From: Bacteroidota bacterium
GTDB taxonomy: Bacteria; Bacteroidota; Ignavibacteria; Kryptoniales; JAKASW01
Direction: 5' to 3'
Assembly: GCA_021811615.1 (NCBI GenBank)
Contig: JAJZNW010000001.1
Coordinates: 29,794-93,793, forward strand
DNA length: 64,000 nt
Shown here: positions 23,419 through 62,196 of the stretch, in pieces
Layout: the number at the start of each line of letters is the position of its first letter
How positions within the stretch are numbered: position 1 is the first letter of the stretch
Program-made: the position numbers and the translations under genes
The notes under the pieces: generated by a model
The model's input: only the letters and a program-made list of their open reading frames with translations
The model's database searches: none
What the model was told of the DNA's origin: nothing

Positions 23419-23740
23419 GCTCCTTTGACTTGGGCGCGGCCGGATGTTCACGGCTATCCGCCGCCAGGTGATGCAACATACTGAACGAAACCTATTATTT
23501 GAAAAATGAAGCAGCACAAATTGACAAGACAATTCGTTTCTGAACCACGGGGTTCTCTCTCGTCCCTTCGAGCTCATGCTGCGGCGAAGTCTGCCCGGTC
23601 ATCCGAGTATCCTGTTCTTTCAGCTGAAAGGTTTGTCATGCGGAGCGCTGACGACTCGGAGGCCTACTGCATGGCCGGAGTCTCCGCCGTCATGACCGCA
23701 ATTGATCCTGCTCGGAATCAACAACGGCAAAGGGATAAGC

Positions 23741-24793: not shown

Positions 24794-24864
24794 CCCATCG
24801 AAAAATTGCCACGAGAGAAACATGTACATGCCAATAAATCCGTTCAATACAAGGGAGAGAAGAA

Positions 24865-25779
24865 TTGACCGGTGAACTACTGATCGGAGTCGATTTCGGG
24901 GGGACGAAGATCCTCACCGGGGCGATGACGGCGGAAGGCGAAGTGGTTTGTGATCCGGTTAAGCTTCCGACGAACGGTGGCGACGCTCCGGAGAAAATCA
25001 TCGGCAGAGTCACCGCTTCCATCGACGAGGTTCTCGCCAAAACCGGGGCGGAGAGGGAAGATGTTGCAGGAATCGGGATGGGAGTTACCGGTCCCATCGA
25101 CATCAAGGGCGGTAGAATACTCGAATGTCCGCAGCTCCCCACGCTGCACTTCTATCCGCTGAAAAAAATGATAGAAGAACGTTATGAGCGCCCTGTACAT
25201 ATGAACAACGATGCGAACTGTCTCATCTATGGCGAGACGCTTTTCGGAAGCGGAGTCGGGATGAAGAATGTCGTCGGTTTCACTCTCGGAACGGGCGTCG
25301 GATGTGCGATAATTCTCGACGGGAAGATATTCGCAGGGAACACTGAGTCCGCTGGCGAGATATGGCCCTCTCCCTACCGTGACGGGACGATAGAGGATCT
25401 CGTTTCCGGTTCAGGAATTTCTACTATCTACAGAAGAATAACGGGCTGCGACAAGACCGCACTCGAGATCTCGACGCTTGCAGAAAAAGGGGACAACGGC
25501 GCTCTCGCCACATGGGAGGAATTCGGCCGTCACCTGTCCGTCGCGATGTCCTGGGCCGTCAACATCATAGATCCGGAAGTGGTGATACTCGGCGGATCGA
25601 TCGCGAACGCCTTCAAATTTTTCGGCCCTTCCATGGAAAGAAATTTTCGAAGACATGTCTGCCCGACTCCTGCGAGTCAGACCAGGGTCGTTTGCGCGAA
25701 ACTTGGCGCGAATGCGGGATTCATTGGAGCCGCCGCCCTGGCACTACAAAAAACCGAAATCGGGCAGAAGCATAAGTGA
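24865..25779 (+). CDS. ROK-family sugar kinase/regulator
   Basis: LIGVDFGGTKILTGAM, IGMGVTGPID, VHMNNDANCLIYGE, GFTLGTGVGCAIILDG; TTG start. Confidence 0.9.
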   Translation: MTGELLIGVDFGGTKILTGAMTAEGEVVCDPVKLPTNGGDAPEKIIGRVTASIDEVLAKTGAEREDVAGIGMGVTGPIDIKGGRILECPQLPTLHFYPLKKMIEERYERPVHMNNDANCLIYGETLFGSGVGMKNVVGFTLGTGVGCAIILDGKIFAGNTESAGEIWPSPYRDGTIEDLVSGSGISTIYRRITGCDKTALEISTLAEKGDNGALATWEEFGRHLSVAMSWAVNIIDPEVVILGGSIANAFKFFGPSMERNFRRHVCPTPASQTRVVCAKLGANAGFIGAAALALQKTEIGQKHK

Positions 25780-25896
25780 AAATCTCATGAGCAAGTTTAC
25801 CGGAATGCTCGTCTCTGCAATCCCTTTCCGAGCCCCGGTTTTGATTTGAAAAATAGACGAAGATACTCTCAACGAGCCAAATCACCGAAGGAGAGA

Positions 25897-28812
25897 ATGA
25901 TGTACCGAAAAATTACGACTTTAACCCGCGCCCTTGCGCTTGTCTTGTCGCTTCTCGTGATGCCTGTGTTTGCGGCACAGAGCGGGACAATAAAGGGACG
26001 CGTCGCAGACGCGCATTCGGGAGATGCGCTCCCCGGGGCCAATGTTTACCTTGTTGGTACAAGCCTGGGTGCCTCCACGGGACTGAACGGAAGTTTTACT
26101 ATTACAAACGTGCCGCCCGGCAACTATACCGTACGAACCACTTATATCGGATACAAGACTGACGTAATGCATATCCGGGTCGCGTCCGGGGAGACGCTTG
26201 AAAAGGCAATCAAGCTGGAGGCCGTCGGAGTACAGGGAAAAGAAGTTGTAGTTACTGCACAAGCGGCGGGACAGAACTCCGCAATTAACCAGCAGCTTGC
26301 GTCGAACCAGATAGTCAACGTCGTTTCTGCGGCAAGGATACAGGAGCTCCCCGATGCCAACGCAGCCGAATCTGTCGGCAGACTTCCCGGTGTGTCGGTC
26401 CTCCGGAGCGGCGGTGAAGCGTATGCCGTCGTAATACGCGGTCTCCAACCGAAGTACAATCAGGTTACCATCGACGGCGTCAAAATGGGCTCGTCCAGCT
26501 CGAGCAGCGACTACACCGACCTGAGCATGATCTCCTCGAATATGCTCGGCGGCATCGAAGTGTACAAGACGATTTCACCGGATATGAACGCGGACGTGAT
26601 CGGCGGCGTCGTCAACTTCGAGATGCGTGAGGCGCAGGTGAAGAAACCGGGCGTCCCGGAAATCAGCCTTGTCGGGCAGGGAGGCTACAACGCTCTCTCC
26701 GACGCGTATAACAAGTTCAACAATTACAAATATGTCGCCACGGTTCAGGATCGTTTCTTCGGTGAGCGCTTCGGAATATTCGCCCAGGCGGACGTCGAAA
26801 GAATCAACCTCAGTTCCAATGAGCTTGGAGCTTCATACGGGGAATATGAAAACACGCTGACACAGTACCTCACGAACAGCGTGAACCTTTACGACATTCC
26901 CCGTGACAGGCGTCGATACAATGCGGCGCTGGTTCTCGACTACAAGCTTCCGGAAGGATCGCTCAAGCTGACAAACTTCGCGAACACAGGCACTACAAAC
27001 GCGACGACATACAGCGAGTCGTTTGATCTGAACAACAACATTCGCTATTACGGAGTGGCGAACTCTAATGCGACGCTGAGCAATATCGTAGACATCCTTG
27101 ATTTCAAACAACAGCTTCCGATTTTCCACCTCGATCTGACATTGTCACATGTGTACTCTGCAACGAACAGTCCGAACAGCTGGAATGCAAATTTCCAGCA
27201 GACACAGGCAGGACTCAACCAGTTCGCGAACCAGCCGAATGTCAATCCCGAGGCCGTTCCCGTCGCGGCAAGCAACGACATTTCGAATGCTTCATTGTAC
27301 CAGTTTAACGTAACCAACAGCTTCTACTGGCAACGTGCTCTGGACGCGAAAGTCGATCTGAGCACGAACGTGAATTTCTCCCCAGATGTGTCGGCTAAAA
27401 TTAAATTCGGGGGATCCTACAAGCACGTAATCAGATCCTATACAACGGACGTCTTGAACGGAACGTTGATAGGAAGTAACGTGGCACAGTTCATTTCTCC
27501 GTATTTCAAGCTCCCTGCCGATGCGGCAAAAATGCAATACTGGGTCGACCCAAATTTCAATTTCGGGACCTTCCTCAACGGCAACTACAAGATGGTATCG
27601 CCGCTGAACTTCGGCATGTTCTCGAAGCTGCTCAACATACTCAACTCGAACTTGCAGAATTACGCACAGCAAAACCAGCAGGCGTGGTATGGCGTGAATA
27701 CGGAAGCATCGATCACCAACAACTATAACGGCTACGAGAATACCGGAGCGTTCTATGTAATGGCCGATTTGAAGGTGGGTCAGCAGTTGACGCTCATTCC
27801 GGGAGTCCGTTATCAAAATCTCGAAACGATCTACACCGCCCCCCGCGGGTTCTCAAGTGCTTTGTCATATTTCACATACGATTACTACGACACTACCGTA
27901 ACCCAGAACCACGGTTACTGGCTTCCGGACGTGTCTTTGAATTACAAGCCGCTTTCGTGGCTCAGTGTACGCCTTGCATATTCGAATACTCTCGCTTATC
28001 CGGATTTCAACACTATAACACCGCGCATAAATGTCGGTTTGAGTAACTCGATCTCATGGAACAACTCTTCCTTGATTCCCGGCCGCTCCGCCAACTATGA
28101 CCTCGCGGTCTCGGTGTACAACGATGCTATCGGCTTGTTCACAGTGGATCCTTTTCTCAAGCAAATTAAGAATCTGATATACTCATGGTCTTATTGGGTA
28201 TCGGGCACGCAGGCATTGCAGTATATACCCGCCAGTTTGCCGGGAACTCCACCGAACCCGAATCAATCATACAATATCAGTACGTATATCAACGACCCGT
28301 ATGTCATAAACGACTATGGAGTCGAACTGGATTGGCAGACTCACTTCTGGTATTTGCCGGGAGTGCTTTCCGGAATTGTATTCGGCGCCAATTACACGCA
28401 CATCTTCTCTCAGGCACAGTATCCGTATACTCTCACGGAAATTACAAGCCGCAGTGTCCAGTATATCGATACGTCATATACGGATCGTCTGATAGATCAG
28501 CCCGACGATATTCTCAATCTTACTTTAGGCTTTGATTACAAGGGCTTCTCGGCCAGGGTGGCATTTCTCTATGAGAGCAATGTTTTTTCGGGAGCAAACT
28601 TCTGGCCGCAACTCAGAGCCTATTCCCCCATATACAGACGCTGGGATTTTGCTGCGAAACAGACTCTTCCGTGGTACGGTATGCAGCTGTATTTGGATCT
28701 TAACAACCTGAATGGAGCAAATACGGTCAGCGTTATCCGGGCGGCTTCGGTCCCAACGTCGGAGCAGGATTACGGCATGACTGCTGACATCGGCATTAGA
28801 TGGACACTATAG
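25897..28812 (+). CDS. TonB-dependent receptor with N-terminal carboxypeptidase-regulatory-like domain
   Basis: GTIKGRVADAHSGDALPGANVYLVGTSLGASTGLNGSFTITNVPPGNYTV; plug SAARIQELPDANAAESVGRLPGVSVLRSGGEAYAVVIRGLQPKYNQVTIDGV; C-terminal barrel ending MTADIGIRWTL. Confidence 0.95.
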   Translation: MMYRKITTLTRALALVLSLLVMPVFAAQSGTIKGRVADAHSGDALPGANVYLVGTSLGASTGLNGSFTITNVPPGNYTVRTTYIGYKTDVMHIRVASGETLEKAIKLEAVGVQGKEVVVTAQAAGQNSAINQQLASNQIVNVVSAARIQELPDANAAESVGRLPGVSVLRSGGEAYAVVIRGLQPKYNQVTIDGVKMGSSSSSSDYTDLSMISSNMLGGIEVYKTISPDMNADVIGGVVNFEMREAQVKKPGVPEISLVGQGGYNALSDAYNKFNNYKYVATVQDRFFGERFGIFAQADVERINLSSNELGASYGEYENTLTQYLTNSVNLYDIPRDRRRYNAALVLDYKLPEGSLKLTNFANTGTTNATTYSESFDLNNNIRYYGVANSNATLSNIVDILDFKQQLPIFHLDLTLSHVYSATNSPNSWNANFQQTQAGLNQFANQPNVNPEAVPVAASNDISNASLYQFNVTNSFYWQRALDAKVDLSTNVNFSPDVSAKIKFGGSYKHVIRSYTTDVLNGTLIGSNVAQFISPYFKLPADAAKMQYWVDPNFNFGTFLNGNYKMVSPLNFGMFSKLLNILNSNLQNYAQQNQQAWYGVNTEASITNNYNGYENTGAFYVMADLKVGQQLTLIPGVRYQNLETIYTAPRGFSSALSYFTYDYYDTTVTQNHGYWLPDVSLNYKPLSWLSVRLAYSNTLAYPDFNTITPRINVGLSNSISWNNSSLIPGRSANYDLAVSVYNDAIGLFTVDPFLKQIKNLIYSWSYWVSGTQALQYIPASLPGTPPNPNQSYNISTYINDPYVINDYGVELDWQTHFWYLPGVLSGIVFGANYTHIFSQAQYPYTLTEITSRSVQYIDTSYTDRLIDQPDDILNLTLGFDYKGFSARVAFLYESNVFSGANFWPQLRAYSPIYRRWDFAAKQTLPWYGMQLYLDLNNLNGANTVSVIRAASVPTSEQDYGMTADIGIRWTL

Positions 28813-30732: not shown

Positions 30733-30883
30733 AGCCGGGTAGTCTGAAATTCAGATTTCTAACTTTCACAAAATTTATTCTTCAACCGGGAACAATCAGG
30801 TCTTGGCTCTCCCGGTAAATAACGGTGGCGGGCAATTCATCTTCCCGTGGAAGAAAAAATTTGCAAATAGTCGAATTGGTGAG

Positions 30884-33553
30884 ATGATGGTCGATGCTAT
30901 TAATTCCTTGAGAAAGCTGCTTTACCCCCGCAGGATGTCATACATTCTGGCCGCGCTTGTTATCGCATTGACAAGCATGCCTGCGTTTTCACAAGGAGTA
31001 TTCTCTTCTCCCGTTTCATTGGCATCTTATGCGACGGACGCTGACGGGAATCTTTACGTATGGGGGCAGGACAACTATCTTCAGCCGGTAGTCAGCACAA
31101 CGACTACCCAGGATTTGACGCCGGTTAAAGTGGCGTTTCCGACCGGAGTCACTTCATGGGTCGAGGCAGCAGCGGGACTTTATCATTCACTTGCTTTGGG
31201 AAACAACGGCGCCGTCTATGCATGGGGCCTGAACAACGCCGGGCAATTAGGGAACGGCACGACCACAAACTCGGAGACGCTTGTGCGTGTAAAACTTCCG
31301 GGCGGAGTCACAGCCACACAAATAGCCTGCGGCGTCGATCACAGTCTCGCGTTAGGCAGTGATGGGAATGTCTATGCCTGGGGCGATAACGCGTATGGAG
31401 AACTGGGAAACGGCACCAATACTAATTCGGACGTGCCTATGAAGGTGAGTTTTCCTTCCGGATTTGTCCCTGCGAAGATTTACGCCTACGCCTACAACAA
31501 TTATGTGGTTGGAACTGATGGGAGTGTTTACGCGTGGGGGGCCAATGGCCAGGGACAATTTGGACTCGGCAACACGGCGAACCAATTGACGCCGGTAAAA
31601 ATACCGCTCCCAAGCGGCGTTACGAAATGCCTGGGGATGTATGGCGGATATTACTTTGCTATCATGCAGGGTAACGACGGCAACTTGTACGGCTGCGGAT
31701 TTAATACCTATGGCCAGCTCGGTGACGGCACAACTAACAACGCCACCACATGGGTGAAGGCAAACATGCCTGCCGGAGTGACGGGTTGGAAGAGTATTGC
31801 ATGCACGGGAAGTTCTGTCCTCGCTATTGCTACGAATGACACTCTCTACGCCTGGGGATACGGCGGCTCCGGCGAGATGGGCAATGGAACGGGCGGCACT
31901 TCCGCCGTCAACAATACGATTCCCGTCAAGGTTGCGCTTCCCTCCGGAGTCACCGCAAACGCTCTCACGGCGCGCAGGTTCGGAGGGCTTATACTTGGAA
32001 GCGACAACTATTACTACGCCTGGGGTCAGGGCATGCAGGGACAGCTTGGAAATGGCGGAAACACAAACTCCTTCGTGCCGGTCAGGGTGATCGATTTGGT
32101 CCGGGTACCGCCCGAAGTTCCAAACCTCGTTTATCCCGCAAACGGCGATACGGGTGTCTCCACCTCGCCGACATTGAGATGGAATTCCGCCGCCGGTGCA
32201 GCGTCGTATCAATTGCAAGTATCTACAGATCCGAGTTTCACCACAGACTTGTTCTTAAACGACTCTACTCTAACTGATACTGCTTATACCTTGTCAGGTA
32301 TCGGAACGAGCTCGATATATTACTGGAGAGTCCGTTCATATAATAACGGGGTATTCAGCGGCTATTCGGCTTCGGACACATTCACGACAGTCTTCAGACC
32401 GCCATCCGCGCCTTCGTTAATCTTCCCGGGAGACAACGCGGTGAACTTCCCTGCGGTGGATACGTTGGTTTGCAGCAAAGCTGCCGGTGCGGCAAAGTAT
32501 CATTGGGAACTGTCCACCGATATCGGCTTCTCTTCATACGTAGTGAACGATTCGACCATCGACACGGCAAACGTCGTCATCCTGTCGGCGGGTCGGAAGT
32601 ATTACTGGAGAGTAAGTGCAATCAACCTAAGCGGCGCGAGTGCCTATGCCGGACCCGATTCGTTTACCGTGATGGCTGCGCCTGCCGTGCCTCCCTTGCT
32701 TATTTCTCCGGTAAACAACGCGACAGGCCAGCGTGCAGATACGCTTATCCTTAGATGGAGCGGCGTTTCTGCATCCTCTGGATATGTGTGCCAGCTGTCG
32801 ACCTCACCGAGGTTCTCGTCCCTCGTCTTCTCGTCGGATTCGACTGCCGATACGATGCTGGCAGTCTTTTCGCTTCAGAATCTCCGGAAGTATTATTGGA
32901 AGGTGCTCGCCTATAATCAGGGAGGAGCATCCGCATTTTCCGCTATCGACTCTTTTGCGACGATCATTTCCGCTCCTTCAAGGCCGCATCTCCTTTCGCC
33001 TTTCCAATCCGCGCACGTTACGCGGCGAGTGACTCTCACCTGGAATGCCTCATTTACAGCGACGGACTACAGCGTCCAGGTCTCGAGCGACAACGCTTTC
33101 AGAACTACCGTCGTGGACACGACCGTTGCCGATACTTCCGTCCAGCTTTCGATCATCCTTCAACCGAGCACAGGCTACTTCTGGCGCGTTGCCTCATCGA
33201 ATCCCGGGGGAATGAGCGGTTACTCTGCGGTCGGGAGCTTCACGACCGGGACAGGCATCCTTGCCATCGAGGCGCCGAACGGCATTCCGAAAACGTTCGC
33301 GCTTTACCAGAATTATCCGAATCCGTTCAATCCGACGACGACGATACAGTATGACGTGCCGAAGAGCTCGCATGTAAGTATAAAAGTCTATGATGTAACG
33401 GGTAGAGAGGTGGCCACTCTTGTCGATGAAAGACAGGCTGCGGGGAATTATTCCGCCGTCTTCAACGGCTCGAGGTTTGCGAGCGGCATGTACTTCCTCC
33501 GGATGGTGGCTGGAAACTACGTCAGGACAGTCAAGATGATGATGGTTAAGTAG
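30884..33553 (+). CDS. Secreted RCC1-repeat beta-propeller + about 4 FnIII-like repeats + T9SS sorting domain (RCC1-A)
   Basis: Repeats of GxDGxVYAWGxNxxGQLGxGTTTNS; FnIII-like YYWRVRSYNNG / YYWRVSAINLSGAS / YYWKVLAYNQGGAS; C-terminal NYPNPFNPTTTIQYDVPKSSHVSIKVYDVTGREVATLV. Confidence 0.9.
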   Translation: MMVDAINSLRKLLYPRRMSYILAALVIALTSMPAFSQGVFSSPVSLASYATDADGNLYVWGQDNYLQPVVSTTTTQDLTPVKVAFPTGVTSWVEAAAGLYHSLALGNNGAVYAWGLNNAGQLGNGTTTNSETLVRVKLPGGVTATQIACGVDHSLALGSDGNVYAWGDNAYGELGNGTNTNSDVPMKVSFPSGFVPAKIYAYAYNNYVVGTDGSVYAWGANGQGQFGLGNTANQLTPVKIPLPSGVTKCLGMYGGYYFAIMQGNDGNLYGCGFNTYGQLGDGTTNNATTWVKANMPAGVTGWKSIACTGSSVLAIATNDTLYAWGYGGSGEMGNGTGGTSAVNNTIPVKVALPSGVTANALTARRFGGLILGSDNYYYAWGQGMQGQLGNGGNTNSFVPVRVIDLVRVPPEVPNLVYPANGDTGVSTSPTLRWNSAAGAASYQLQVSTDPSFTTDLFLNDSTLTDTAYTLSGIGTSSIYYWRVRSYNNGVFSGYSASDTFTTVFRPPSAPSLIFPGDNAVNFPAVDTLVCSKAAGAAKYHWELSTDIGFSSYVVNDSTIDTANVVILSAGRKYYWRVSAINLSGASAYAGPDSFTVMAAPAVPPLLISPVNNATGQRADTLILRWSGVSASSGYVCQLSTSPRFSSLVFSSDSTADTMLAVFSLQNLRKYYWKVLAYNQGGASAFSAIDSFATIISAPSRPHLLSPFQSAHVTRRVTLTWNASFTATDYSVQVSSDNAFRTTVVDTTVADTSVQLSIILQPSTGYFWRVASSNPGGMSGYSAVGSFTTGTGILAIEAPNGIPKTFALYQNYPNPFNPTTTIQYDVPKSSHVSIKVYDVTGREVATLVDERQAAGNYSAVFNGSRFASGMYFLRMVAGNYVRTVKMMMVK

Positions 33554-33578
33554 AATGGAACCCAGGAGATTTTTCCAG

Positions 33579-35543
33579 ATGAACAAGTCTTTGAGTCTTT
33601 CTAAAGCAGCGGGCATACTCGCAATGATGCTGATCGTGGCTGCCAATGCCACCGCATCAATGCCTGCACCGGCTCCTCCTCAAGGCATGGTGGACCTCGT
33701 GCTCGGCAAGCCTTACACGATAACCCCGCTTGTCTCAATAGAGTATTCCTTCGGCCCGAGCGAAACCAACTATTTTACGCCTGGTGATTTGACCGACGGC
33801 AAGATCGCGTCCTCAGTGGCATATGCCGACCCGGAATGGCAGGAGTTCACCCGGGGCGGGGCACGCAGCCTTGTCATTGATATGGGGGAAGTAAACACCA
33901 TCCACCAGATGCAGGAAAGATTCCTGAACTACCCGTCGGCCGGTATCTATTTTCCCCGGACCGTTACCTATTCATTGTCGATGAACGATACCGACTGGTC
34001 GGTTGTCGGGATAGTCAATTCATCAATACCGCTTACGAGTGAAGTCGACCAGACGCAAACTTATACAGTGTCGGGCCTGAATTACCAGGCGAGATACGTC
34101 AAGATGACGTTCACGGTCGATGTGAATGAATTTGCCGATGAGTTCCAGGTGTTCGGAGATTCGGGGGTCGTCGACAACTCCACAATCCCGATTATTACTC
34201 CGCCGGTTAAATACCCCGACCAGTATATGGCGCCGGGTTCTCCACAGGTAGGCGGGATAAGGAACATGGTTCTCATTCCGAATGGTTATTACGCGGCAAA
34301 CCCCGCCATTGAAAACAATACCGTCTCTCAGCTGATCCCTTATGTCGGTTACCAGTCGCCTTCGGGGTCCATAACGGATTTCATGTTCGACGCAGTCTTG
34401 TTTACTCCGTACGGAGCTGCACCGTCGGGAGGGAATTACGGCGATAACAATTCCACTCCAACGAACATGTCCGATTGGCTGTACTACCTCAACAATACAT
34501 TTTCACCGGTATACAACCTCGCTGCTCTGGACAGCGCCACTGCAGTCGTCAAAAAAGATCTAAACGATCCCGGCTATAAGGAAAAAGTCGAAATCGCCAT
34601 ACCGTATCCTTGTCCTTCAGATACAAACTTCGGGACTATCGGCGGTGTTCAGGAAAATCTCTCGAATCTTACCGGCCAGGAACAGGTCCTGTCGTGGTAC
34701 GTCGATCAGGTGATTAGCCGCTGGGATTCGGCAGGGTACGCAAATCTTGACCTCGTAGGCTTTTATTGGTTCAGCGAAAGTGCCGGGTTCACCGTGAATG
34801 ACAGCGAGACGGCCATGCTCAATTACATCTCGAACTACATCACCGGGAAAGGGAAAGTCCTCGATTGGATCCCGTTCAAGGACGCCAGCGGTTTTGCGGA
34901 CTGGAGCACGCTTGGATTTAACGGGGCATGGATGCAGCCGAACTATTCTTTCAGCAACTATCCTCCTCAGGAACTGGCGGAGACGGCGGAGGCATGCAAG
35001 AAGCTCGGGATGGGTATCGAAATCGAGATTCATTGGAATGCACTTACCGATTCAACCCTCAGAAATAAGTATTATGCTTATCTCAATTACGGCGTCACCG
35101 ATGGATATATGACGGGAGCCAGCCATGCGTATTACCAGAATTCCGGGCCGGGCACTTTCTATACCTGCGCTGAGAGCACGAACCCGACGCTGCGTGCAAT
35201 CTACGACGCGACATATCAGTTCATAAATGGGACTTACCAGGTGCCGACCGCCGTGGAAGAAACTCCCGGCTCACTCCCTGAGAAGTTCAACTTGAGCAAC
35301 AACTATCCTAATCCGTTTAACCCTGCCACAACGATAAAAGCAACTCTTGGCCGAAGCGGCGTGATGAGTCTTAGCATATATAATGTATTGGGACAGCTGG
35401 TTAAGGTAGTGGACGAAGGGTACAAAGCGCCGGGAGTTTACACTTACGAAGTGAACATGGACAATTTGGCGAGCGGAGTGTATTTCTATCGTTTGCAGCA
35501 GGGAAACGATTTCATGACAAAAAAGATGCTTCTCCTCAAGTAA
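33579..35543 (+). CDS. Secreted DUF4855-like protein with N-terminal discoidin-like module and T9SS sorting domain (DUF4855-1)
   Basis: LTDGKIASS...SLVIDMGEVNTIHQMQERFL...YQARYVKMTFTVDVNEFADEFQVFG; GGIRNMVLIPNGYYAANPAIENNTVSQLIPYVGY; C-terminal NNYPNPFNPATTIKATL. Confidence 0.85.
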   Translation: MNKSLSLSKAAGILAMMLIVAANATASMPAPAPPQGMVDLVLGKPYTITPLVSIEYSFGPSETNYFTPGDLTDGKIASSVAYADPEWQEFTRGGARSLVIDMGEVNTIHQMQERFLNYPSAGIYFPRTVTYSLSMNDTDWSVVGIVNSSIPLTSEVDQTQTYTVSGLNYQARYVKMTFTVDVNEFADEFQVFGDSGVVDNSTIPIITPPVKYPDQYMAPGSPQVGGIRNMVLIPNGYYAANPAIENNTVSQLIPYVGYQSPSGSITDFMFDAVLFTPYGAAPSGGNYGDNNSTPTNMSDWLYYLNNTFSPVYNLAALDSATAVVKKDLNDPGYKEKVEIAIPYPCPSDTNFGTIGGVQENLSNLTGQEQVLSWYVDQVISRWDSAGYANLDLVGFYWFSESAGFTVNDSETAMLNYISNYITGKGKVLDWIPFKDASGFADWSTLGFNGAWMQPNYSFSNYPPQELAETAEACKKLGMGIEIEIHWNALTDSTLRNKYYAYLNYGVTDGYMTGASHAYYQNSGPGTFYTCAESTNPTLRAIYDATYQFINGTYQVPTAVEETPGSLPEKFNLSNNYPNPFNPATTIKATLGRSGVMSLSIYNVLGQLVKVVDEGYKAPGVYTYEVNMDNLASGVYFYRLQQGNDFMTKKMLLLK

Positions 35544-35710: not shown

Positions 35711-38368
35711 ATGAAAAGCGTTCAAGAACCTGATGACATTCGATCGTTCGGTTTGAAGACGGCTGCAGTCGTGCTGCTGTTTGTATTGTTTTCCACTTCA
35801 AGAAGAGGAACATCGCAGGAAGTGTATTCGTCTTCGAGTTCCTTTGCGTCTTATGCGATAGACGCAAGCGGTAATCTCTATACCTGGGGGGAAGATGAAT
35901 ACCATCATCCCGTTACTGCATCCATGATGTCCCAGGATTTGACGCCGGTCAAAGTGGCGTTTCCGCCTGGCGTAACGCGATGGGTGGCTGTAGCCGCCGG
36001 ACATGTGCATACACTCGTGATCGGGAACGACGGGAATATCTATGCGTGGGGCGATAACGAGTACGGACAGCTGGGCGACGGCTCGCTTGTCAACTCCGAT
36101 AGTCTGGTGAAGGTCGATCTTCCCGGCGGCGTGACCGCAAAACAGGTCGCGTGCGGTTACTGGCACAGTCTCGCTCTCTGCAGCGACGGCAACGTCTACG
36201 CCTGGGGAGAAAACAACAACGGACAACTCGGCAATGGAACTACTACTAATTCCGACCTACCGGTTAAAGTAGATCTCCCTGCCGGCTCCAATCCTGTTTC
36301 CGTGTACGCCGGATGGTACTACAGCTTCGCGCTGGGTGCCGACGGGACCCTTTATGCCTGGGGCGGCAACGCCCAGGGACAATTGGGACTGGGCAATATG
36401 ACGAGCGAATCGTTGCCGACTGAGGTCCCATTTCCTTCGGGTGTCACGAAATGGACGGGAGTATATGGAGGCATCTACTTCGCGGCGGCAACAGGGAATG
36501 ACGGCATCCTTTACGAAAGCGGATATAACCAGTACGGCCAGCTTGGAAACGGAACGGCGACCGGCACATCATCCGGCGTTATGACTTTTCAAAAGGCCAA
36601 TATGCCTGCCGGAGTAACTGGCTGGAATGACGTAGCCTGTACCGGCAGTTCGGTCCTCGCCATCGGCAACAATGACACTCTCTACGCATGGGGGTACGGG
36701 GGATCGGGCGAAATGGGAAACGGCACAACCGTGGGCACGAACCCGATCCCTGTCAAAGTTGCAATGCCTCCGGGCGTCGTTGTGACTTCAGTTGCAGCAG
36801 GCCGAAATCACGGCCTTGCCATCGGCAGCGACGGCAACATATATGCCTGGGGCCAGGACGGACAGGGTCAACTCGGAAATAACAGCATAAAAAATTCTTC
36901 CGTACCGGTTCAAATACTTCTCAACTACACCGGCAAGATTTCCGGAGTGAGGCTGCTATCGGTGATCCCGGGATGGACCGATCCGTCCATTGAAACCGTG
37001 CATGGCCCGAGTATCGCGGTGTACGATCCGCAGATCGATACACTCGGTAAGCTGGTCCTTTTTCTCGTAGGGACAGGCGCGAGCGCGACTCCGATGTGGA
37101 CGATGGACAGCATATATGCCTCGATGGGTTACTACGCCATTACGCTCGACTACGAAGACAACGTAGTCGCGGCAAGCTTGGGAAATGACTCGGACTCGGC
37201 CGCTTTCGGAAACTACCGAGACGAGATTGTCACCGGCGCGCAGGTGAGCAATGCAGTGAATGTCGACAGCGCGAATTCCATCTTGAACAGGTTTCAAAAA
37301 CTCCTTGTCTATCTCGCCCAGTCCGATACCGCAGGAGACTGGTCTCAATTCCTGCAGAACGGCGAACCGGTCTGGAACCATATCATCGTGGCGGGCCATT
37401 CTCAGGGATCGGGACACGCTGCTTACATAGGAAAAATGTTCGATGTGAGCAGGGTCCTGATGTTCTCGGGTCCGCAGGATTTCATGACAATCTATAACAG
37501 ACCGGCTCCATGGCTCTACGAGAAAGGTGCTACTCCGCCGACAAGCTATTTTGCTTTCCTGAACCAGTATGATCCTTACAATGTCAATCATCAGATCGCC
37601 AATTGCTCGGCTTTGATGGGCACACAGCGACCGGATATTCTGACGAACGTTAGTTCGGGCCGGACGATTACCGGCAATTGGAGGATACTCGTTACCGACA
37701 CGCTGTCTGGCTCCGCGCATGGATCCACGATACTTCCGATTTTTGCGAACGTGTGGCGCTTCATGCTGTCCGCCGAACTTCCCAGCGTACCTTCGGTACC
37801 TGTTCCGGTCTCGCCGGTGGGAGGTACGGGGGTCCCCCGCAGAGCGCCTCTGAAATGGTCCTCCGCATCGCCGGCGACAAGCTACCATCTGCAGGTTGCG
37901 ACTGATGCGGCATTTGCATCCATGGTGGTCGATACGACAGTATCCGACACAGGCATAACACTCTCCGTCACTCTGGCGCCGGAAACGAGATACTACTGGC
38001 ATGTCGCGGCATCGGACATTGGACTGGACGGCTCTTATTCGGCTGTCGATTCGTTCACGACAGGTACCGGAATCGATGCGATCGATGAGCCGACCGGCGT
38101 CCCTGCGGAATTTTCGCTCTCAAACAATTACCCGAACCCTTTCAATCCGTCTACGACGATCAGGGTGAGTCTCGCTCGCGCCGGCGTGATAACCCTGAAA
38201 ATTTATGATGTGCTCGGGCGACTGGTAAAAGTGGTCACCGAGGGTTTTCAAAATGCCGGATCGTACACTTATGAAGTTGATATGGAGCGTTTCTCCAGCG
38301 GCGTGTATTTCTACTCACTCCGTGAAGGTCCGGATGCGATCACCAAGAAGATGCTCTTTGTCAAGTGA
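35711..38368 (+). CDS. RCC1-repeat propeller fused to an alpha/beta hydrolase domain, one FnIII-like repeat and T9SS sorting domain (RCC1-B)
   Basis: RCC1 repeats to ~aa 400; then VIPGWTDPSIETVHGPSIAVYDP...IIVAGHSQGSGHAAYIGKMF...VLMFSGPQDFMTIYNRPAPW; then NNYPNPFNPSTTIRVSL. Confidence 0.9.
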   Translation: MKSVQEPDDIRSFGLKTAAVVLLFVLFSTSRRGTSQEVYSSSSSFASYAIDASGNLYTWGEDEYHHPVTASMMSQDLTPVKVAFPPGVTRWVAVAAGHVHTLVIGNDGNIYAWGDNEYGQLGDGSLVNSDSLVKVDLPGGVTAKQVACGYWHSLALCSDGNVYAWGENNNGQLGNGTTTNSDLPVKVDLPAGSNPVSVYAGWYYSFALGADGTLYAWGGNAQGQLGLGNMTSESLPTEVPFPSGVTKWTGVYGGIYFAAATGNDGILYESGYNQYGQLGNGTATGTSSGVMTFQKANMPAGVTGWNDVACTGSSVLAIGNNDTLYAWGYGGSGEMGNGTTVGTNPIPVKVAMPPGVVVTSVAAGRNHGLAIGSDGNIYAWGQDGQGQLGNNSIKNSSVPVQILLNYTGKISGVRLLSVIPGWTDPSIETVHGPSIAVYDPQIDTLGKLVLFLVGTGASATPMWTMDSIYASMGYYAITLDYEDNVVAASLGNDSDSAAFGNYRDEIVTGAQVSNAVNVDSANSILNRFQKLLVYLAQSDTAGDWSQFLQNGEPVWNHIIVAGHSQGSGHAAYIGKMFDVSRVLMFSGPQDFMTIYNRPAPWLYEKGATPPTSYFAFLNQYDPYNVNHQIANCSALMGTQRPDILTNVSSGRTITGNWRILVTDTLSGSAHGSTILPIFANVWRFMLSAELPSVPSVPVPVSPVGGTGVPRRAPLKWSSASPATSYHLQVATDAAFASMVVDTTVSDTGITLSVTLAPETRYYWHVAASDIGLDGSYSAVDSFTTGTGIDAIDEPTGVPAEFSLSNNYPNPFNPSTTIRVSLARAGVITLKIYDVLGRLVKVVTEGFQNAGSYTYEVDMERFSSGVYFYSLREGPDAITKKMLFVK

Positions 38369-38587: not shown

Positions 38588-41278
38588 ATGAGAAATGCTA
38601 AGACTGTCTGTATCACACAGCTGTTCGATTGGAAGTCCGGTCTCCTCGCGTTTTTGCTCTCCGCCGCGCTTCTGGCCAGGCCGGCTCTCGCGCAGACCGT
38701 GTACTCTTCGTCCAGTGCGTATTCATCATATGTGATAGACTCAAAGGGAAATTTATACGCCTGGGGAGAGGATGAGTTTCAGCACCCGTTTGTCGCTAAG
38801 GTATCCGCGCAGGATTCCGTGCCGGTTTCGATACCTTTCCCCGCGGGCGTAACCGGCTGGACTGACGTGGCGACAGGTCTCTTCGACAATCTCGCAGTCG
38901 GGAACGACGGCAACATCTATGCATGGGGATACAACAATTACGGCCAGTTGGGCGACGGCACGACAACCAGCACCGACACCCTTGTGAAGGTTACACTTCC
39001 GAACGGCGCGAAAGCACTCCAGGTCGCCTGCGCGCAGACTCACAGCCTTGCACTCGGGAGCGACGGAAACATCTACGCTTTCGGTTTCAATAACAACGGC
39101 CAGTTGGGTGACAGTTCGACGACAAATTCGCCCAATCCTGTCCGTGTTCATCTTCCCGCTGGCTTCACTCCCGCAAAGATTTACGCCGGATGGTATTACA
39201 GTGCGGCACTCGGCACAGACAGCACTCTTTACGTGTGGGGCGGTAACGCGCAGGGTCAGCTCGGACTCGGCAACACCACAAAGCAGCTCGTCCCGGCTGA
39301 AGTCCCGTTTCCCAGCGGCGTTACAAAATGGACCGGGGTTTACTGCGGACTGTACTTCATCGTCCTTAAAGGCAACGATGGAAATCTTTATGCCTCCGGC
39401 TATAATACTTACGGACAGCTTGGCAATGGAAAAACTACAAACTCGACTTCACTTGTTGAGGTGAATCTACCCTCCGGCGTAACCGGGTGGAAGACTGCAG
39501 CCTGTACCGGCAGCGGAGTCCTGGCCCTGGCAAGCAACGATAGTCTGTATGGATGGGGATACAATGGCGACGATGCGCTCGGAAACGGCACGTCCGGTGT
39601 TGGAACAAACCTGGTCCCCACGGCCGTCAAACTCCCAGCAGGAGTTACCGTTTCGGCACTCGCTGCGGGACGTGATCATGCCCTTGCCGTCGGAAGCGAC
39701 AACTACTATTACGCATGGGGGCAAGGAACGCAGGGCCAGCTAGGCGATGACAGCCTGACAAGCTCGACAGTCCCGGTCAGGGTATACGGCCTTCTGCAGG
39801 TACCTCCCGCTTCGCCCGTTCTCTCATCCCCCGCCAACAATTCTGTAAACCAGCCTTTGAGCGTTTCTTTGAAATGGAACGCCGTGTCAGGCGTGGATGG
39901 GTACCAATGCCAGGTGTCGACGGATCCGGCCTTTTCCACCAAGATCGTTCTCGATGATTCTTCACTCACCTCATCCTCTGTGAACCTGACAGGTCTCGGA
40001 TACAGCACGAAGTATTACTGGCACGTTCTTTCTTACCAGAACGGAGTCGTCGGCAGTTTTTCCGGGCTCGACAGCTTCACGACAATTATGCAGGCTCCTG
40101 AGGCCACCAGGCTCGTTTCTCCGGTGGATAACGCAATTGACCAGCCCGCAACCGATACTCTGAAATGCGGCTCCGCCTTAGGTGCGTCTCAGTATAATTG
40201 GCAAGTCTCCACGAACGTCTCCTTTTCCACCTTCGTGGTTAATGATTCGACCATAGACACTGTGAATGTTGTCGCCGGTCTTACTCCCGGAATGAAATAT
40301 TACTGGCAGGTGCGGTCCGTCAACCCAGGCGGAGCGAGCGCTTTCGCGGGTCCCGACTCATTTACCGTGGAAGAAATTCCCGCGTCACCGGCGCTGATTG
40401 CACCGGCCAACGGAGCAACCTTCCAGCGTGCAGATACACTTGCACTAGTCTGGCACAGCGCCCCCCTTGCATCCGGGTACGGTCTTCAGGTGTCCGACAG
40501 TATCTCGTTCAAGACTTTCATCGTAAATGACTCTACCGCCGACACAATGCAGGTGCTGACAAAACTGAACAATCTGCAGAAGTATTACTGGCGTGTACTT
40601 GCGTATAATGCTGGCGGAGCCAGCGCGTACTCGGCTATCGATTCGTTTACTACCAGGGTTGCGGTCCCCGCATCTCCAGGCCTCGTCTTCCCCAAACTCT
40701 CGACGACAGGAATTCCGCGTGCACTTACCTTCAGATGGAGCCCGTCAGTCCGCGCCGTGAAGTATCTGGTCCAGGTGGCGACGAACTCTCAGAGTTACTA
40801 CTCGGGTGACTCAGCAGGATATTTCCAGCAGGCGGTGTTCGATACGACCGTGTCCGATACGGCGGTTCAGCTTCCCGAAGCGCTTCTTCAGAACACCATT
40901 TATTACTGGCATGTCGGCGCTATCGACACCGCAGGCATGAGCGGATTCTCCACTACCTGGGAGTTCAAAACCGGCACCGGGCTTACAGCGGTGGATGAAC
41001 CCACGGGGATACCGAAGGCTTTTTCCTTGATGCAGAACTATCCGAACCCCTTCAACCCGACGACTATGATAAAGTACAGCCTGCCGAAGGCGCAGATGGT
41101 TACGCTGGAGGTGTACAATGTCCTCGGCGAGAAAGTTGCCACGCTGGTAAACGCGCACCAGGATGCCGGCTATTACGAGGTGAGCTTCAACGCCGATCGG
41201 TTCGCGAGCGGTGTCTATTTATATGTGTTGAGAACCGGCAGTTTCAGTGCGGTTCATAAAATGTTGCTTTTGAAGTAA
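38588..41278 (+). CDS. Secreted RCC1-repeat beta-propeller + about 4 FnIII-like repeats + T9SS sorting domain (RCC1-C)
   Basis: GNDGNIYAWGYNNYGQLGDGTTTSTDT-type repeats; FnIII-like YYWHVLSYQNG / YYWQVRSVNPGGAS / YYWRVLAYNAGGAS; C-terminal QNYPNPFNPTTMIKYSLPKAQMVTLEVYNVLGEKVATLV. Confidence 0.9.
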   Translation: MRNAKTVCITQLFDWKSGLLAFLLSAALLARPALAQTVYSSSSAYSSYVIDSKGNLYAWGEDEFQHPFVAKVSAQDSVPVSIPFPAGVTGWTDVATGLFDNLAVGNDGNIYAWGYNNYGQLGDGTTTSTDTLVKVTLPNGAKALQVACAQTHSLALGSDGNIYAFGFNNNGQLGDSSTTNSPNPVRVHLPAGFTPAKIYAGWYYSAALGTDSTLYVWGGNAQGQLGLGNTTKQLVPAEVPFPSGVTKWTGVYCGLYFIVLKGNDGNLYASGYNTYGQLGNGKTTNSTSLVEVNLPSGVTGWKTAACTGSGVLALASNDSLYGWGYNGDDALGNGTSGVGTNLVPTAVKLPAGVTVSALAAGRDHALAVGSDNYYYAWGQGTQGQLGDDSLTSSTVPVRVYGLLQVPPASPVLSSPANNSVNQPLSVSLKWNAVSGVDGYQCQVSTDPAFSTKIVLDDSSLTSSSVNLTGLGYSTKYYWHVLSYQNGVVGSFSGLDSFTTIMQAPEATRLVSPVDNAIDQPATDTLKCGSALGASQYNWQVSTNVSFSTFVVNDSTIDTVNVVAGLTPGMKYYWQVRSVNPGGASAFAGPDSFTVEEIPASPALIAPANGATFQRADTLALVWHSAPLASGYGLQVSDSISFKTFIVNDSTADTMQVLTKLNNLQKYYWRVLAYNAGGASAYSAIDSFTTRVAVPASPGLVFPKLSTTGIPRALTFRWSPSVRAVKYLVQVATNSQSYYSGDSAGYFQQAVFDTTVSDTAVQLPEALLQNTIYYWHVGAIDTAGMSGFSTTWEFKTGTGLTAVDEPTGIPKAFSLMQNYPNPFNPTTMIKYSLPKAQMVTLEVYNVLGEKVATLVNAHQDAGYYEVSFNADRFASGVYLYVLRTGSFSAVHKMLLLK

Positions 41279-41450
41279 CAATCCCCGAAGCCATGGATGG
41301 GAGCTCGTACGAGCCTTCACAAACCGTATGAGCTCCCTCCGATTTTTGAAATTATTATATAATGAATGCTGCATGAAAGCCGGAATCGCTCCGGAAACGA
41401 GTTCCACCGGAGATCGAGGTCGCATGAATGCAGACGATAAGGTTGAGCTG

Positions 41451-43133
41451 ATGAAAGAACATTTTTCCCTGTCCAGGCATTTACTTTTGATCGTTGCATT
41501 CGCGCTGGCCTCGGTGCCGGTGGTCCATGCATCGCTTCCCGCTCCACCTCCTCCCGCAGGGATGGTGGACCTTGTATTGGGAAAATCGTATGCCGCCACA
41601 CCGCTTGTCCCGATTAAATATTCCTTTGCCCCGATGGAAGTCGGACTTCAATTCCCGGGCGGCCTGACGGACGGCAGGATAGCTTCGTCGACGAACTATA
41701 ATGACCGCCAATGGCAGCAGTACATTCGCGGAGGAATGCGAAGCATCATAGTCGACATGGGACGCGTGAACACCGTTCACCGGATGCAGGAGAGATTTCT
41801 TCAGGATATCCCTCACGGAATAGATTTTCCAAGAGAAGTGATATACTCTCTCTCCATGGACGGGAAACACTGGGCCGTCGTTGGTACGGTGAAGAGCGCA
41901 ATATCTTTGACCGTCACTAAGCCCACGGTTCAGACATATACTCTTTCCGGCCTCAATTACCAGGCAAGATATGTGAAGATGACATTCGTCGTCGACGTCT
42001 TCACGCTCGCGGATGAATTCCAGGTCTTCGGAAACAACGGCGTTGTCGATGGCGCGACAGTTCCGGGAATGACTCCTCCGCCGGTTTACCCGGACAAATA
42101 TTGTCCCCCGGGATCTCCCGAAGTCGGCGGAACGAGGAACATGGTTCTCATCACGAACGGTTATTACAGGAAAGATCCTGCAATAGAGAAGAACAGCGTG
42201 GACCAGCTTCTCCCTTATGTGGGTTACATCAGCTCTTCCGGGAAAATTAAGGATTTCATGTTCGACGCCTTTTTATTCTCGGCTTTCGGTGCCGCGCCCT
42301 CCGGCGGGCAGTACGGCGCCGATATCAAAAAGCCCACGGTCCTGTCCGACTGGCAGTATTATATCGACAATACTTTTTTGCCGGATTACAACGTCTCGGC
42401 CTTGAATATCGCAACGGGAAAAGTGAAGAAGGCCCTCGGGAAGCCGTCGTATAGGTCGAAGGTCGAAATTGCTATTCCATATCCGACTCCAAGCGCGAAG
42501 TACTTCGGAAAAGTAAAAGGGAAGTCGATAAATATGGAAAAGCTTTCAGGCAGGGAGAGTGTAATTAGATGGTACGTGGATCAGGTCCTGAGAAGATGGA
42601 AAGAAGGCCATTACTCGAACCTTAAACTCGTCGGCCTCTACTGGATCAGCGAGAAGGCGGCCTTCACAATTGATGACAGCGAGACTGCGTTGATCAGATA
42701 TGTGGGCAACTATGTCAGGAGTAAAGGACTGGTTCTCGATTGGATACCCTTCATCAATGCGGAAGGATTTTACGAATGGCACTCGCTCGGCTTCGACGGA
42801 GCGGAGATGCAGCCGAATTATTCGTTCCACAATTACCCTGTCCGGGAACTCGGCGAGGCGGCTGAAACCTGCAAGATGCTCGGAATGGGAATAGAAATTG
42901 AAATACACTGGGATGCCCTGAAGAACGATGCACTCCTCGAAAAGTACTACCAGTACCTCAACTGGGGAATCAAGAAAGGCTACATGACCGGAGCCGCTCA
43001 TTCGTATTACCAGAATGCCGGACCGGGGACTTTCTATCAGTGCTGTTATAGTAAGAACCCCAGGATCAGGGAAGTCTACGACAAGACTTATGATTTCATA
43101 AAAGGAACATACACAGAGACCAACGTTCATTGA
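41451..43133 (+). CDS. Secreted DUF4855-like protein without T9SS sorting domain (DUF4855-2)
   Basis: Signal MKEHFSLSRHLLLIVAFALASVPVVHA; same blocks as DUF4855-1 (VDMGRVNTVHRMQERFL, YQARYVKMTFVVDVFTLADEFQVFG, GTRNMVLITNGYY); ends IKGTYTETNVH. Confidence 0.83.
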   Translation: MKEHFSLSRHLLLIVAFALASVPVVHASLPAPPPPAGMVDLVLGKSYAATPLVPIKYSFAPMEVGLQFPGGLTDGRIASSTNYNDRQWQQYIRGGMRSIIVDMGRVNTVHRMQERFLQDIPHGIDFPREVIYSLSMDGKHWAVVGTVKSAISLTVTKPTVQTYTLSGLNYQARYVKMTFVVDVFTLADEFQVFGNNGVVDGATVPGMTPPPVYPDKYCPPGSPEVGGTRNMVLITNGYYRKDPAIEKNSVDQLLPYVGYISSSGKIKDFMFDAFLFSAFGAAPSGGQYGADIKKPTVLSDWQYYIDNTFLPDYNVSALNIATGKVKKALGKPSYRSKVEIAIPYPTPSAKYFGKVKGKSINMEKLSGRESVIRWYVDQVLRRWKEGHYSNLKLVGLYWISEKAAFTIDDSETALIRYVGNYVRSKGLVLDWIPFINAEGFYEWHSLGFDGAEMQPNYSFHNYPVRELGEAAETCKMLGMGIEIEIHWDALKNDALLEKYYQYLNWGIKKGYMTGAAHSYYQNAGPGTFYQCCYSKNPRIREVYDKTYDFIKGTYTETNVH

Positions 43134-43161: not shown

Positions 43162-45483
43162 TTGGAGATGGATTTGACTCAACTGAGAGCTGGAATAATC
43201 GCAGCCCTTTTGCTGATGCCGGTGTCCTGCACGACGGCGTTCGCCGCCGGCAAGCCGGATCACTGTGCATCTGTCAATTACAGATTGCGTAATCTCGTGA
43301 AGTACGTGAATCCTTTTGCCGGGACGAAGGCAAACGGAGAGACCTACCCGGGCGCCACGGTCCCGTTCGGGATGATACAGTGGAGTCCCGATACCGGTCC
43401 GTTCAGACGTCCTGCAGGCTACAAGTACGGTGACTCGCTCATCACAGGCTTCAGCCTCGATCATCTCAGCGGCGCAGGATGTCCTTATGGCGACAACTTC
43501 GGTTTCGTCCCGCTCACGAACACATCGGGTATCAAACCTCCGCTCGGAAGGGCAGGATTTCTCGAGCCGTTCTCCCATGCCAATGAGACCGCACACCCTG
43601 GCTACTATTCGGTTAAGCTCAATGACGGCATAAAGGTGGAGCTGACGGCCACCGGGCGCATGGGGTTCGGCAGATTCATATTCCCGGCAGACTGCACGCC
43701 CACTATTGCCGTCAACGCGGGAAGCAACGTCAACGGCACAAGGGATGTCGTCATGACGATCGATCCTGCGAAGCGCTCGATGAGCGGCGAGGTTACCGGC
43801 GGACACTTCTGCAACTTCCCGGATGTCACGACCATTTACTTCTGCGCAATTTTCAACCGGCCCTTCGCAAGTTACGGTACCTGGGCCGACTCGAGCCTCA
43901 TGCACGGGAAAACCGTCGGTGAAGGAAATACCGGTGGCGCCTGGGCCACATTTGACGCAAAGGACGGCCGGACCGTCCTCGCGAGAGTCGCGATCTCTTA
44001 CGTAAGCGTGGAAAACGCGAAACTTAATCTTGAGAATGAAAGCCCGCTCACGGAATTCACGTCGAAGGCCTTCGAAAATACCGTTCGATCTGCTGGCCGC
44101 CTTTGGAATTCCTGGCTCAACAGAGTGCAGGTCGCTGGGGGAACGAAAGCGGAATACCGTACCTTCTATACGATGCTGTACCATGCTCTCCTCGCTCCTA
44201 CTGTGTATTCCGATGTCAACGGACAGTACATGGGTTATGACGGAAAGGTTCACACCGTAAATGACGGTCAGCCGGAATATGCCGATTACTCCGGGTGGGA
44301 CATCTACAGGAGCGAATGCCAGCTTCTCGCGATAATCGCACCGGACCGCGCGAGCGCGATGGCGCAGTCGCTCGTAAGAGACTATCGTCAGGGCGGTGCA
44401 TTCCCCCGGTGGGGAGTTCCCGGAATGGACAGCGGCGTGATGATCGGAGATCCTGCCGCAGCGATGATCGCAGATTTCTACGCGTTCGGTGCGAGAGATT
44501 TCGATGCCCGCGGCGCGTTGTCAGGACTTATCCGCGCGGCAACCGATCCGTCGGTGTACGCGATCCGATCCCATACTTACGAGAGGCCGGGCATTGCGGA
44601 CTACCTCACTTTAGGTTATCTCCCTGCGAGCCAGGACGGCGGGAACGTTTCGATGACTCTCGAGTACAATTCCGCCGACTTCGCGCTCTCGCAATTCGCG
44701 GGTGCGCTTGGCGACAATCCGGACAGCGTCCTTATGCTCAAGCATGCCCAGTACTGGAAAAATCTTTTCAACAAGAAGACGGGTTTCTTCGGAATGCGTC
44801 ACCGGAACGGCGCCTGGGTTCCGGCGTCTGAAGACACCGTCGACCACTTCGGGTCGAGCCAGGCCTACGTCGAGGGAAGTCCGGAACAATATGTATGGAT
44901 GGTCCCGTTCGATCTGAAAGGTCTCGCGGAGAAAATGGGCGGGAGGAAGACGGCTCTGGCGCGCCTCGATACGTTTTTTACCGAAATCAACGGAGGTTTC
45001 AAATCGAAGTATGCTTATCTTGGAAATGAGCCGAGCATCGAAACGCCGTATATATACTGTTTTCTCGGTGAGCCTTACAAGACTCAACGGGTAGTGAGAG
45101 CGGCCATCAACAAGCTCTATCACGGACATGTCGGTGCCTATCCCGGCAACGACGATCTCGGAGAAATGTCGTCATGGTACATCTTCGGTGCAATCGGAAT
45201 GTATCCGGAACTGCCCGGCTCCGATGTGCTTGTACTTGGAAGTCCGCTTTTCAAGAAAACCATACTCCATCTGCGTGGCGGCACTGTTACGATAATCGGA
45301 AACGGAGCTGGAAAAGACTCGCCCTACATACGCGGTTTGATGGTCGACGGGCGTAAATGGAATAAGCCGTGGATACGTTTTGGAGAAATCGCGCACGGCG
45401 GCACGTTGGTATATTTTCTTAGACGGACTCCCGATAAAAAATGGGGAAGCGCCGCCAAAGACGCCCCCCCTTCGTATAACTGA
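43162..45483 (+). CDS. GH92-family alpha-mannosidase-like glycoside hydrolase
   Basis: LVKYVNPFAGTKANGETYPGATVPFGMIQWSPDTG...ITGFSLDHLSGAGCPYGDNFGFVPL...YAGNDDLGEMSSWYIFGAIGMYP-type GH92 motifs (AYPGNDDLGEMSSWYIFGAIGMYPELPGSDVLVLGSPLF). Confidence 0.95.
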   Translation: MEMDLTQLRAGIIAALLLMPVSCTTAFAAGKPDHCASVNYRLRNLVKYVNPFAGTKANGETYPGATVPFGMIQWSPDTGPFRRPAGYKYGDSLITGFSLDHLSGAGCPYGDNFGFVPLTNTSGIKPPLGRAGFLEPFSHANETAHPGYYSVKLNDGIKVELTATGRMGFGRFIFPADCTPTIAVNAGSNVNGTRDVVMTIDPAKRSMSGEVTGGHFCNFPDVTTIYFCAIFNRPFASYGTWADSSLMHGKTVGEGNTGGAWATFDAKDGRTVLARVAISYVSVENAKLNLENESPLTEFTSKAFENTVRSAGRLWNSWLNRVQVAGGTKAEYRTFYTMLYHALLAPTVYSDVNGQYMGYDGKVHTVNDGQPEYADYSGWDIYRSECQLLAIIAPDRASAMAQSLVRDYRQGGAFPRWGVPGMDSGVMIGDPAAAMIADFYAFGARDFDARGALSGLIRAATDPSVYAIRSHTYERPGIADYLTLGYLPASQDGGNVSMTLEYNSADFALSQFAGALGDNPDSVLMLKHAQYWKNLFNKKTGFFGMRHRNGAWVPASEDTVDHFGSSQAYVEGSPEQYVWMVPFDLKGLAEKMGGRKTALARLDTFFTEINGGFKSKYAYLGNEPSIETPYIYCFLGEPYKTQRVVRAAINKLYHGHVGAYPGNDDLGEMSSWYIFGAIGMYPELPGSDVLVLGSPLFKKTILHLRGGTVTIIGNGAGKDSPYIRGLMVDGRKWNKPWIRFGEIAHGGTLVYFLRRTPDKKWGSAAKDAPPSYN

Positions 45484-45493
45484 CAACTTGAAA

Positions 45494-48040: not shown

Positions 48041-48123
48041 CCGAATGGGTGGACTTCACGTCGGCCTGCTTTCTGATCCGGACGAGGACGAAAATCGCAT
48101 TGAATGTGAAAGAAGGAAATAGG

Positions 48124-50310: not shown

Positions 50311-50398
50311 CGTAGATGTACCGGATGAATCATTATATTACTTCTTCAGTTTCGCGCGTCGAACGACTCTCTGTCAAAATTAATTTCAGGATCATACC

Positions 50399-52663: not shown

Positions 52664-52712
52664 ACTGTAAACAATCAGGAATAGCACAAATCAGATCAGG
52701 AGTGATCGCACC

Positions 52713-54035: not shown

Positions 54036-54124
54036 TTGATCCACGGGCCGGTCAATTGCTCGTGGTAGGCTTCAACACCAAAGAGATGGTTTTTTCAAAA
54101 AATAAATCGATGACTGGAGGTAAC

Positions 54125-55039: not shown

Positions 55040-55056
55040 AACAATCGGGTGACGTT

Positions 55057-57843: not shown

Positions 57844-57916
57844 AATACTTACTTGCTCAACGCCGGACATCGAATTGCCGACTCCATACTTGCGAGATAC
57901 TTTGGAAAAAGGACAC

Positions 57917-59902: not shown

Positions 59903-60025
59903 AGTTGCCGTGGAAGGCGGAATTCGCATGTCACCTCCCGGCATGTGGCTCTTCCCCCCGGAGCCCGGCTTTGCCTGACGTCGGGAGGATGCTCAAAATT
60001 AAGTCCTGGAGAAACAGATAACATT

Positions 60026-62074: not shown

Positions 62075-62119
62075 TCGGTGGCTTGGATGCCTGTGATTTG
62101 AGTCTCTCCGGGACCGGCA

Positions 62120-62151
62120 TTTGTCGAAGGCCGTGTGCGGTAATATGTTTG
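62120..62151 (+). promoter_or_regulatory. Bacteroidota-type promoter candidate (TTTG-N20-TATGTTTG)
   Basis: TTTG at 62120-62123 and TATGTTTG (TAnnTTTG) at 62144-62151, 45 bp upstream of the FucP-like start codon. Confidence 0.45.
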
Positions 62152-62196
62152 GTTTGGTATTTTTAGTAATAATGAACTTAAAACAAAGGAGTTGTT

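Follow-up and report, generated by a model that had tools for sequence, protein, structure and literature searches.

The window analysed here, a stretch of 64,000 nucleotides from a Bacteroidota genome, holds a glycan-degradation cluster that includes three genes for RCC1 propeller proteins, and the middle one, RCC1-B, joins its propeller to an alpha/beta hydrolase domain of the BPSS1187 family (Table 1). Alignment of RCC1-B with its paralogues RCC1-A and RCC1-C showed that the propellers and the C-terminal parts match throughout, with four FnIII units in the paralogues set against the hydrolase and one FnIII in RCC1-B. A preliminary description of this DNA had proposed that a hydrolase of about 270 aa replaces FnIII repeats 1-3 of RCC1-B, that RCC1-A and RCC1-C keep four repeats in that position and that the nucleophile elbow reads GHSQG. 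Our alignment bears out all three points, with a domain of about 284 aa and the motif at aa 562-566 (window positions 37394-37408). The single FnIII and sorting domain described as following the hydrolase are both present in RCC1-B, but the FnIII is optional, as the fused gene of a sister species (G001) consists of propeller, hydrolase and sorting domain without it; the number of FnIII units is thus a loose trait. The claim that the hydrolase is embedded in the propeller was not upheld, as the structural model places it C-terminal to a closed, seven-bladed propeller.

Table 1. Features of RCC1-B and its surroundings, in window coordinates.
Feature	Position	Strand	Description or basis
SIS (GlmS/GlmD-like) and ROK sugar kinase genes	23702-25779	+	
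TonB-dependent receptor of the cluster	25846-28812	+	
RCC1-A paralogue	30803-33553	+	Propeller, four FnIII and sorting domain, without enzyme
RCC1-B, whole gene	35711-38368	+	Single open frame, 885 aa: propeller, BPSS1187-family hydrolase, FnIII and T9SS CTD
RCC1-B signal peptide-like N-terminus, aa 1-36	35711-35818	+	Hydrophobic aa ~15-28 (sequence); helix 14-30 (model)
RCC1-B seven-bladed RCC1 propeller, aa 37-402	35819-36916	+	Pfam repeats, AF2 model, Foldseek to UVR8
RCC1-B alpha/beta hydrolase domain, aa 405-688 (~284 aa), BPSS1187 family	36923-37774	+	NCBIfam, alignment, AF2, Foldseek
RCC1-B Ser564, nucleophile in GHSQG	37400-37402	+	Invariant, 39 members
RCC1-B Asp621, triad acid	37571-37573	+	Invariant, 39 members
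RCC1-B His670, triad base (AHGS)	37718-37720	+	Invariant, 39 members
RCC1-B single FnIII-like unit, aa 695-783	37793-38059	+	Equals the fourth unit of RCC1-A and RCC1-C (alignment)
RCC1-B T9SS type A C-terminal sorting domain	38108-38365	+	Por_Secre_tail (Pfam), TIGR04183 (NCBIfam)
RCC1-C paralogue	38588-41278	+	Propeller, four FnIII and sorting domain, without enzyme
DUF4855 paralogues, three in cluster	33555-35543, 41328-43133, 57875-59902		Two with T9SS sorting domains
GH92, GH3, DUF6259, GH3 and sugar-porter MFS genes	43162-54035	+	
Stand-alone BPSS1187-family hydrolase	54056-55039	+	Carries a signal peptide but lacks a sorting domain; 56% identity with the hydrolase of RCC1-B
DUF4855 (with sorting domain), GH20 and NagP-like MFS genes	57875-63540	+	

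Pfam recognizes seven RCC1 repeats in RCC1-B (PF00415, 1.1e-69). An AF2 model of the full-length protein, which at a pTM of 0.50 was used for the propeller and the domain boundaries only and not for domain orientation, shows a closed propeller with strands spanning residues 37-402, the last of which (395-402) completes the blade formed by the N-terminal strands. A linker of low confidence (404-411) separates this propeller from the hydrolase, and the C-terminal FnIII/CTD part of the model has pLDDT values mostly below 50. Foldseek aligned the propeller with UVR8 at a TM-score on the target of 0.91, an rmsd of 2.0 and 29% identity. Pfam, the model and the UVR8 match together identify the tandem repeats and closed seven blades of an RCC1-like propeller.

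The sorting domain of RCC1-B scores above the cut-off both for PF18962 (Por_Secre_tail, aa 807-881; 41.7 bits against 27) and for TIGR04183 (38.5 against 23), and its C-terminal position marks the protein as T9SS type A cargo. Presence of a T9SS in this genome is supported by two SprA homologues over the cut-off; PorU-like matches scored below the curated cut-off, one of them being a 333-aa frame on contig C49. In P. gingivalis the CTD of T9SS cargo is cleaved and the cargo is anchored to the outer membrane (PMC8545088). Judging from these sequence features, RCC1-B is very likely displayed on the cell surface.

The hydrolase scores about twice the curated cut-off of 125 for BPSS1187_fam (NF047580, NCBIfam), with 244.3 bits for the whole of RCC1-B and 248.1 bits for the domain alone, and aa 448-686 cover profile positions 1-243 of 244. 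In an alignment of 39 sequences, comprising the window sequences and genome-scan loci only, Ser564, Asp621 and His670 (S160, D217 and H266 of the domain) are invariant in all 39 members, as is domain residue Asp186. Loss of the catalytic His or Asp, which the preliminary description had named as a ground for refuting its proposal, is therefore excluded. The AF2 model of the domain (pLDDT 93.8, pTM 0.92) found 611 PDB matches at E<=0.001 in Foldseek, with alpha/beta hydrolases at the top, and this fold, together with the nucleophile elbow and the Ser-Asp-His order in the alignment, identifies the domain as an alpha/beta hydrolase. Esterases, cutinase/PETase, phthalate esterase, ferulic acid esterase and acetyl esterase are the nearest solved folds (E ~1e-6 to 1e-7), with a likeness at the level of the fold only (TM-scores of 0.41-0.51, 10-15% identity). 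At such values the substrate cannot be read from the structure, while there is good support for the class of fold and for the catalytic residues. Sequence searches of the PDB yielded no direct relatives by phmmer and, with a profile, nothing beyond weak matches in the area of the nucleophile, to PETase-like hydrolases and RBBP9. Among Pfam and NCBIfam families, the domain matched BPSS1187_fam and, weakly, DUF3089, and no carbohydrate esterase family. The accessible parts of the literature describe no activity for the BPSS1187 family; BPSS1187 figures there as a PCR target for B. pseudomallei, in papers on the diagnosis of melioidosis or on related strains. The domain is in all probability an active serine hydrolase, and there is a good chance that it performs ester chemistry.

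Three other species of the genus (G010, G003 and G001) have the same hydrolase at 89, 85 and 80% identity within frames of 923, 749 and 823 aa, and keep both the fusion and the gene order. The conserved order runs from the TonB receptor through the beta-helix protein, RCC1-A, DUF4855, RCC1-B and RCC1-C to DUF4855, and continues with GH92, GH3, DUF6259, GH3, MFS, the stand-alone hydrolase, DUF4855 and GH20. The fused gene of G003 is cut by the start of its contig; another contig holds a match to the first 156 residues. For the hydrolase, dN/dS was 0.074 between the window's genome (G000) and G010, and the remaining pairs with estimable dS gave 0.067-0.100; several pairs had high or saturated dS. 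Judged by these values, the fused hydrolase is under purifying selection. In G002, the cluster and the stand-alone hydrolase are present, with no RCC1-B between the DUF4855 genes. A reverse-transcriptase-like frame (L022:3843-4964; group II intron type by eye) occupies the place of RCC1-B and RCC1-C, and the absence of these genes is possibly a loss associated with an insertion. A PF04185-type phosphoesterase lies just before the second DUF4855 gene in G003 (L018:4742-6235, the copy identified with Pfam), G001 (L020:15763-17286) and G002 (L022:5401-6924); the window lacks this gene, and none was seen in G010.

The cluster itself comprises a TonB receptor, GH92, two GH3, GH20, DUF6259, three DUF4855 proteins, a beta-helix protein, a sugar-porter MFS, a NagP-like MFS (481 bits, below the cut-off of 625), ROK and SIS. 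The combination of GH92 and GH20 with genes for uptake and phosphorylation of GlcNAc-type sugars indicates a mannose- and GlcNAc-containing glycan as its probable target. For DUF4855, we found no function in the literature and no solved relative. Elsewhere in the same genome, a fourth RCC1 protein, whose C-terminus resembles a sorting domain, is encoded at a contig edge near two further GH92-like genes (L024:15434-17971, contig C88).

The preliminary description omitted the second, stand-alone copy of the hydrolase. A maximum-likelihood tree of 58 domains unites the four fused copies in one clade (100/100), whose sister (joint branch 97/93) combines the stand-alone copies of the cluster with stand-alone genes of MAGs that are labelled as Acidobacteriota, Verrucomicrobiota and Planctomycetota. 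This placement indicates that the fused and the stand-alone copies are either ancient paralogues or relatives that were acquired separately, and did not arise by recent duplication. The closest stand-alone relatives (L048, L049, L050, L053 and L054) come from MAGs of other phyla and are 64-71% identical to the stand-alone copy of the window. Such a mixture of phyla suggests gene transfer between phyla or, alternatively, errors in MAG binning. Some stand-alone relatives in other phyla adjoin GH31/MGH1-like, GH116, GH30/GH5 or DUF6259 genes; the neighbours of L049 and L054 have no CAZyme look by eye. Adjoining the stand-alone hydrolase in the window is a gene for a 958-aa protein (54967-57843) that is conserved in G010, G003 and G002 and has no sequence match in Pfam, NCBIfam or the PDB.

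A search for the RCC1-hydrolase architecture, as the preliminary description had advised, found the combination of RCC1 and BPSS1187 only in this genus. A BPSS1187 match over the cut-off was present in 11 of 398 Bacteroidota genomes, and inside a frame of RCC1 size only here; among 47 loci of the family in the genome collection, RCC1 occurred only in congeners. The family was also detected in 8/297 Acidobacteriota and 12/249 Planctomycetota genomes, none of which held an RCC1-BPSS1187 fusion as judged by frame length and by reading five longer frames. Two of the longer frames have C-terminal Ig-like regions (by eye; one weak HYR match) and one appeared to be a stop-to-stop extension; L087 and L088 were likewise rejected by eye as stop-to-stop extensions. 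Two Planctomycetota proteins (L145:1926-4043 and L146:1927-3837) combine an N-terminal DUF4886 or GDSL-lipase domain with the BPSS1187-family domain. Esterases with carbohydrate substrates are common among GDSL/SGNH domains, and these two proteins are possibly bifunctional esterases, which makes them a lead to the function of BPSS1187 and not a test of it. A plasmid collection yielded no match.

From the observed architecture, conservation of the fusion, triad, fold, sorting domain and cluster content, we infer the ester chemistry, the glycan substrate, targeting by the propeller and a periplasmic second copy. In the mechanism that we propose, the T9SS would export RCC1-B to the cell surface, where its propeller would serve as a binding or display module and the Ser564-His670-Asp621 triad would remove an acyl (acetyl-like) group from a glycan, opening the way for the GH92, GH20 and GH3 enzymes of the cluster, while the stand-alone paralogue would perform the same step in the periplasm on imported oligosaccharide. 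We give about even chances to this proposal, namely that RCC1-B is a T9SS-exported surface serine esterase that deacylates a glycan and has a periplasmic counterpart in the stand-alone paralogue; that the substrate is a glycan is, taken alone, a slightly better bet. An esterase or deacetylase-like enzyme targeted to a surface polysaccharide had been suggested before, and of this suggestion the serine-esterase type is well supported (by the invariant triad and the closest folds) and the saccharide setting is supported (by the cluster and some relatives). A broader reading, in which BPSS1187 is a carbohydrate esterase family that has gone unrecognized and the genus has a paired system with one copy on a glycan-binding surface propeller and the other in the periplasm, strikes us as rather unlikely.

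Glycan targeting by the propeller is a tentative assignment, and a role as a protein-protein scaffold is nearly as likely. RCC1-A, RCC1-B and RCC1-C might assemble on the surface with one another or with the DUF4855 proteins, and the hydrolase would then ride along. This would fit both the alternation of the three RCC1 paralogues with DUF4855 genes in a conserved order and the binding of proteins by RCC1 propellers of known function, such as RCC1 and BLIP-II (PMC9218822), but the lectin-like Laminin_G_3 domains on other Bacteroidota RCC1 proteins fit glycan adhesion equally well, and any such complex is hypothetical. Such a scaffold concerns targeting only and is compatible with the esterase.

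Alternatively, RCC1-B may be an active serine hydrolase whose substrate is something other than a carbohydrate ester (a lipid, polyester, peptide or small-molecule ester), with the glycan cluster a mere genomic setting. The presence of cutinase, PETase and phthalate esterase among the nearest folds, and the sparse distribution of the family with its varying neighbours, favour this possibility. Nevertheless, four species each retain two BPSS1187 copies within a single glycan cluster and several relatives in other phyla adjoin glycosidases, and we consider a non-carbohydrate substrate unlikely, though a serious contender.

A catalytically silent binding or structural module might be imagined because RCC1-A and RCC1-C bear binding-type modules in the same position; however, the triad is complete in all four fused genes as well as across the alignment and dN/dS is low, which rules out a degenerate hydrolase and leaves silence very improbable. 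Finally, joining of two genes by an assembly or frameshift artefact, raised in the preliminary description as a possible refutation, has a negligible probability and is ruled out by a single open frame, by conservation of the fusion in three separately assembled congener genomes at 80-89% identity and by the single clade of fused copies. The architecture of RCC1-B is thus real and conserved, combines a familiar propeller with a hydrolase family that is known but has no described function, and has no earlier description that we could find.

For BPSS1187, a family without a described function, these results provide a testable context, in that two copies, apparently sorted to different compartments, belong to a conserved glycan-degradation cluster. 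Bacterial RCC1 propellers, whose ligands are known in few cases only, become open to a specific biochemical question, since an enzyme attached to a propeller reports on the ligand of that propeller.

RCC1-B can be compared with four known systems. It shares seven RCC1 repeats in a closed propeller with the superfamily of RCC1, UVR8, HERC RLDs and BLIP-II, but is further equipped with an enzyme domain and a sorting domain for the T9SS and shows no sign of acting on Ran or chromatin. With the BPSS1187 family it shares a conserved triad, whereas the members found outside this genus are stand-alone proteins (~300-450 aa) or, among the few long proteins examined, fusions with Ig-like or DUF4886/GDSL regions, and none has an RCC1 propeller. 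T9SS-exported RCC1 proteins of Bacteroidota resemble RCC1-B in combining a propeller with Por_Secre_tail, to which FnIII or lectin-like modules are often added. The 16 long RCC1 proteins of other Bacteroidota that were scanned bear LRR, Laminin_G_3, FnIII, SprB or carboxypeptidase-regulatory-like domains and, in contrast to RCC1-B with its hydrolase, no enzyme domain recognized by Pfam, from which poorly covered families such as BPSS1187 could escape. Finally, unlike the modular carbohydrate esterases of polysaccharide utilization clusters, RCC1-B matched no recognized carbohydrate esterase family in Pfam or NCBIfam, and a SusD was not seen among the scanned proteins of the window, but like them it appears to set a serine esterase-type fold, with a possible binding module, beside glycosidases.
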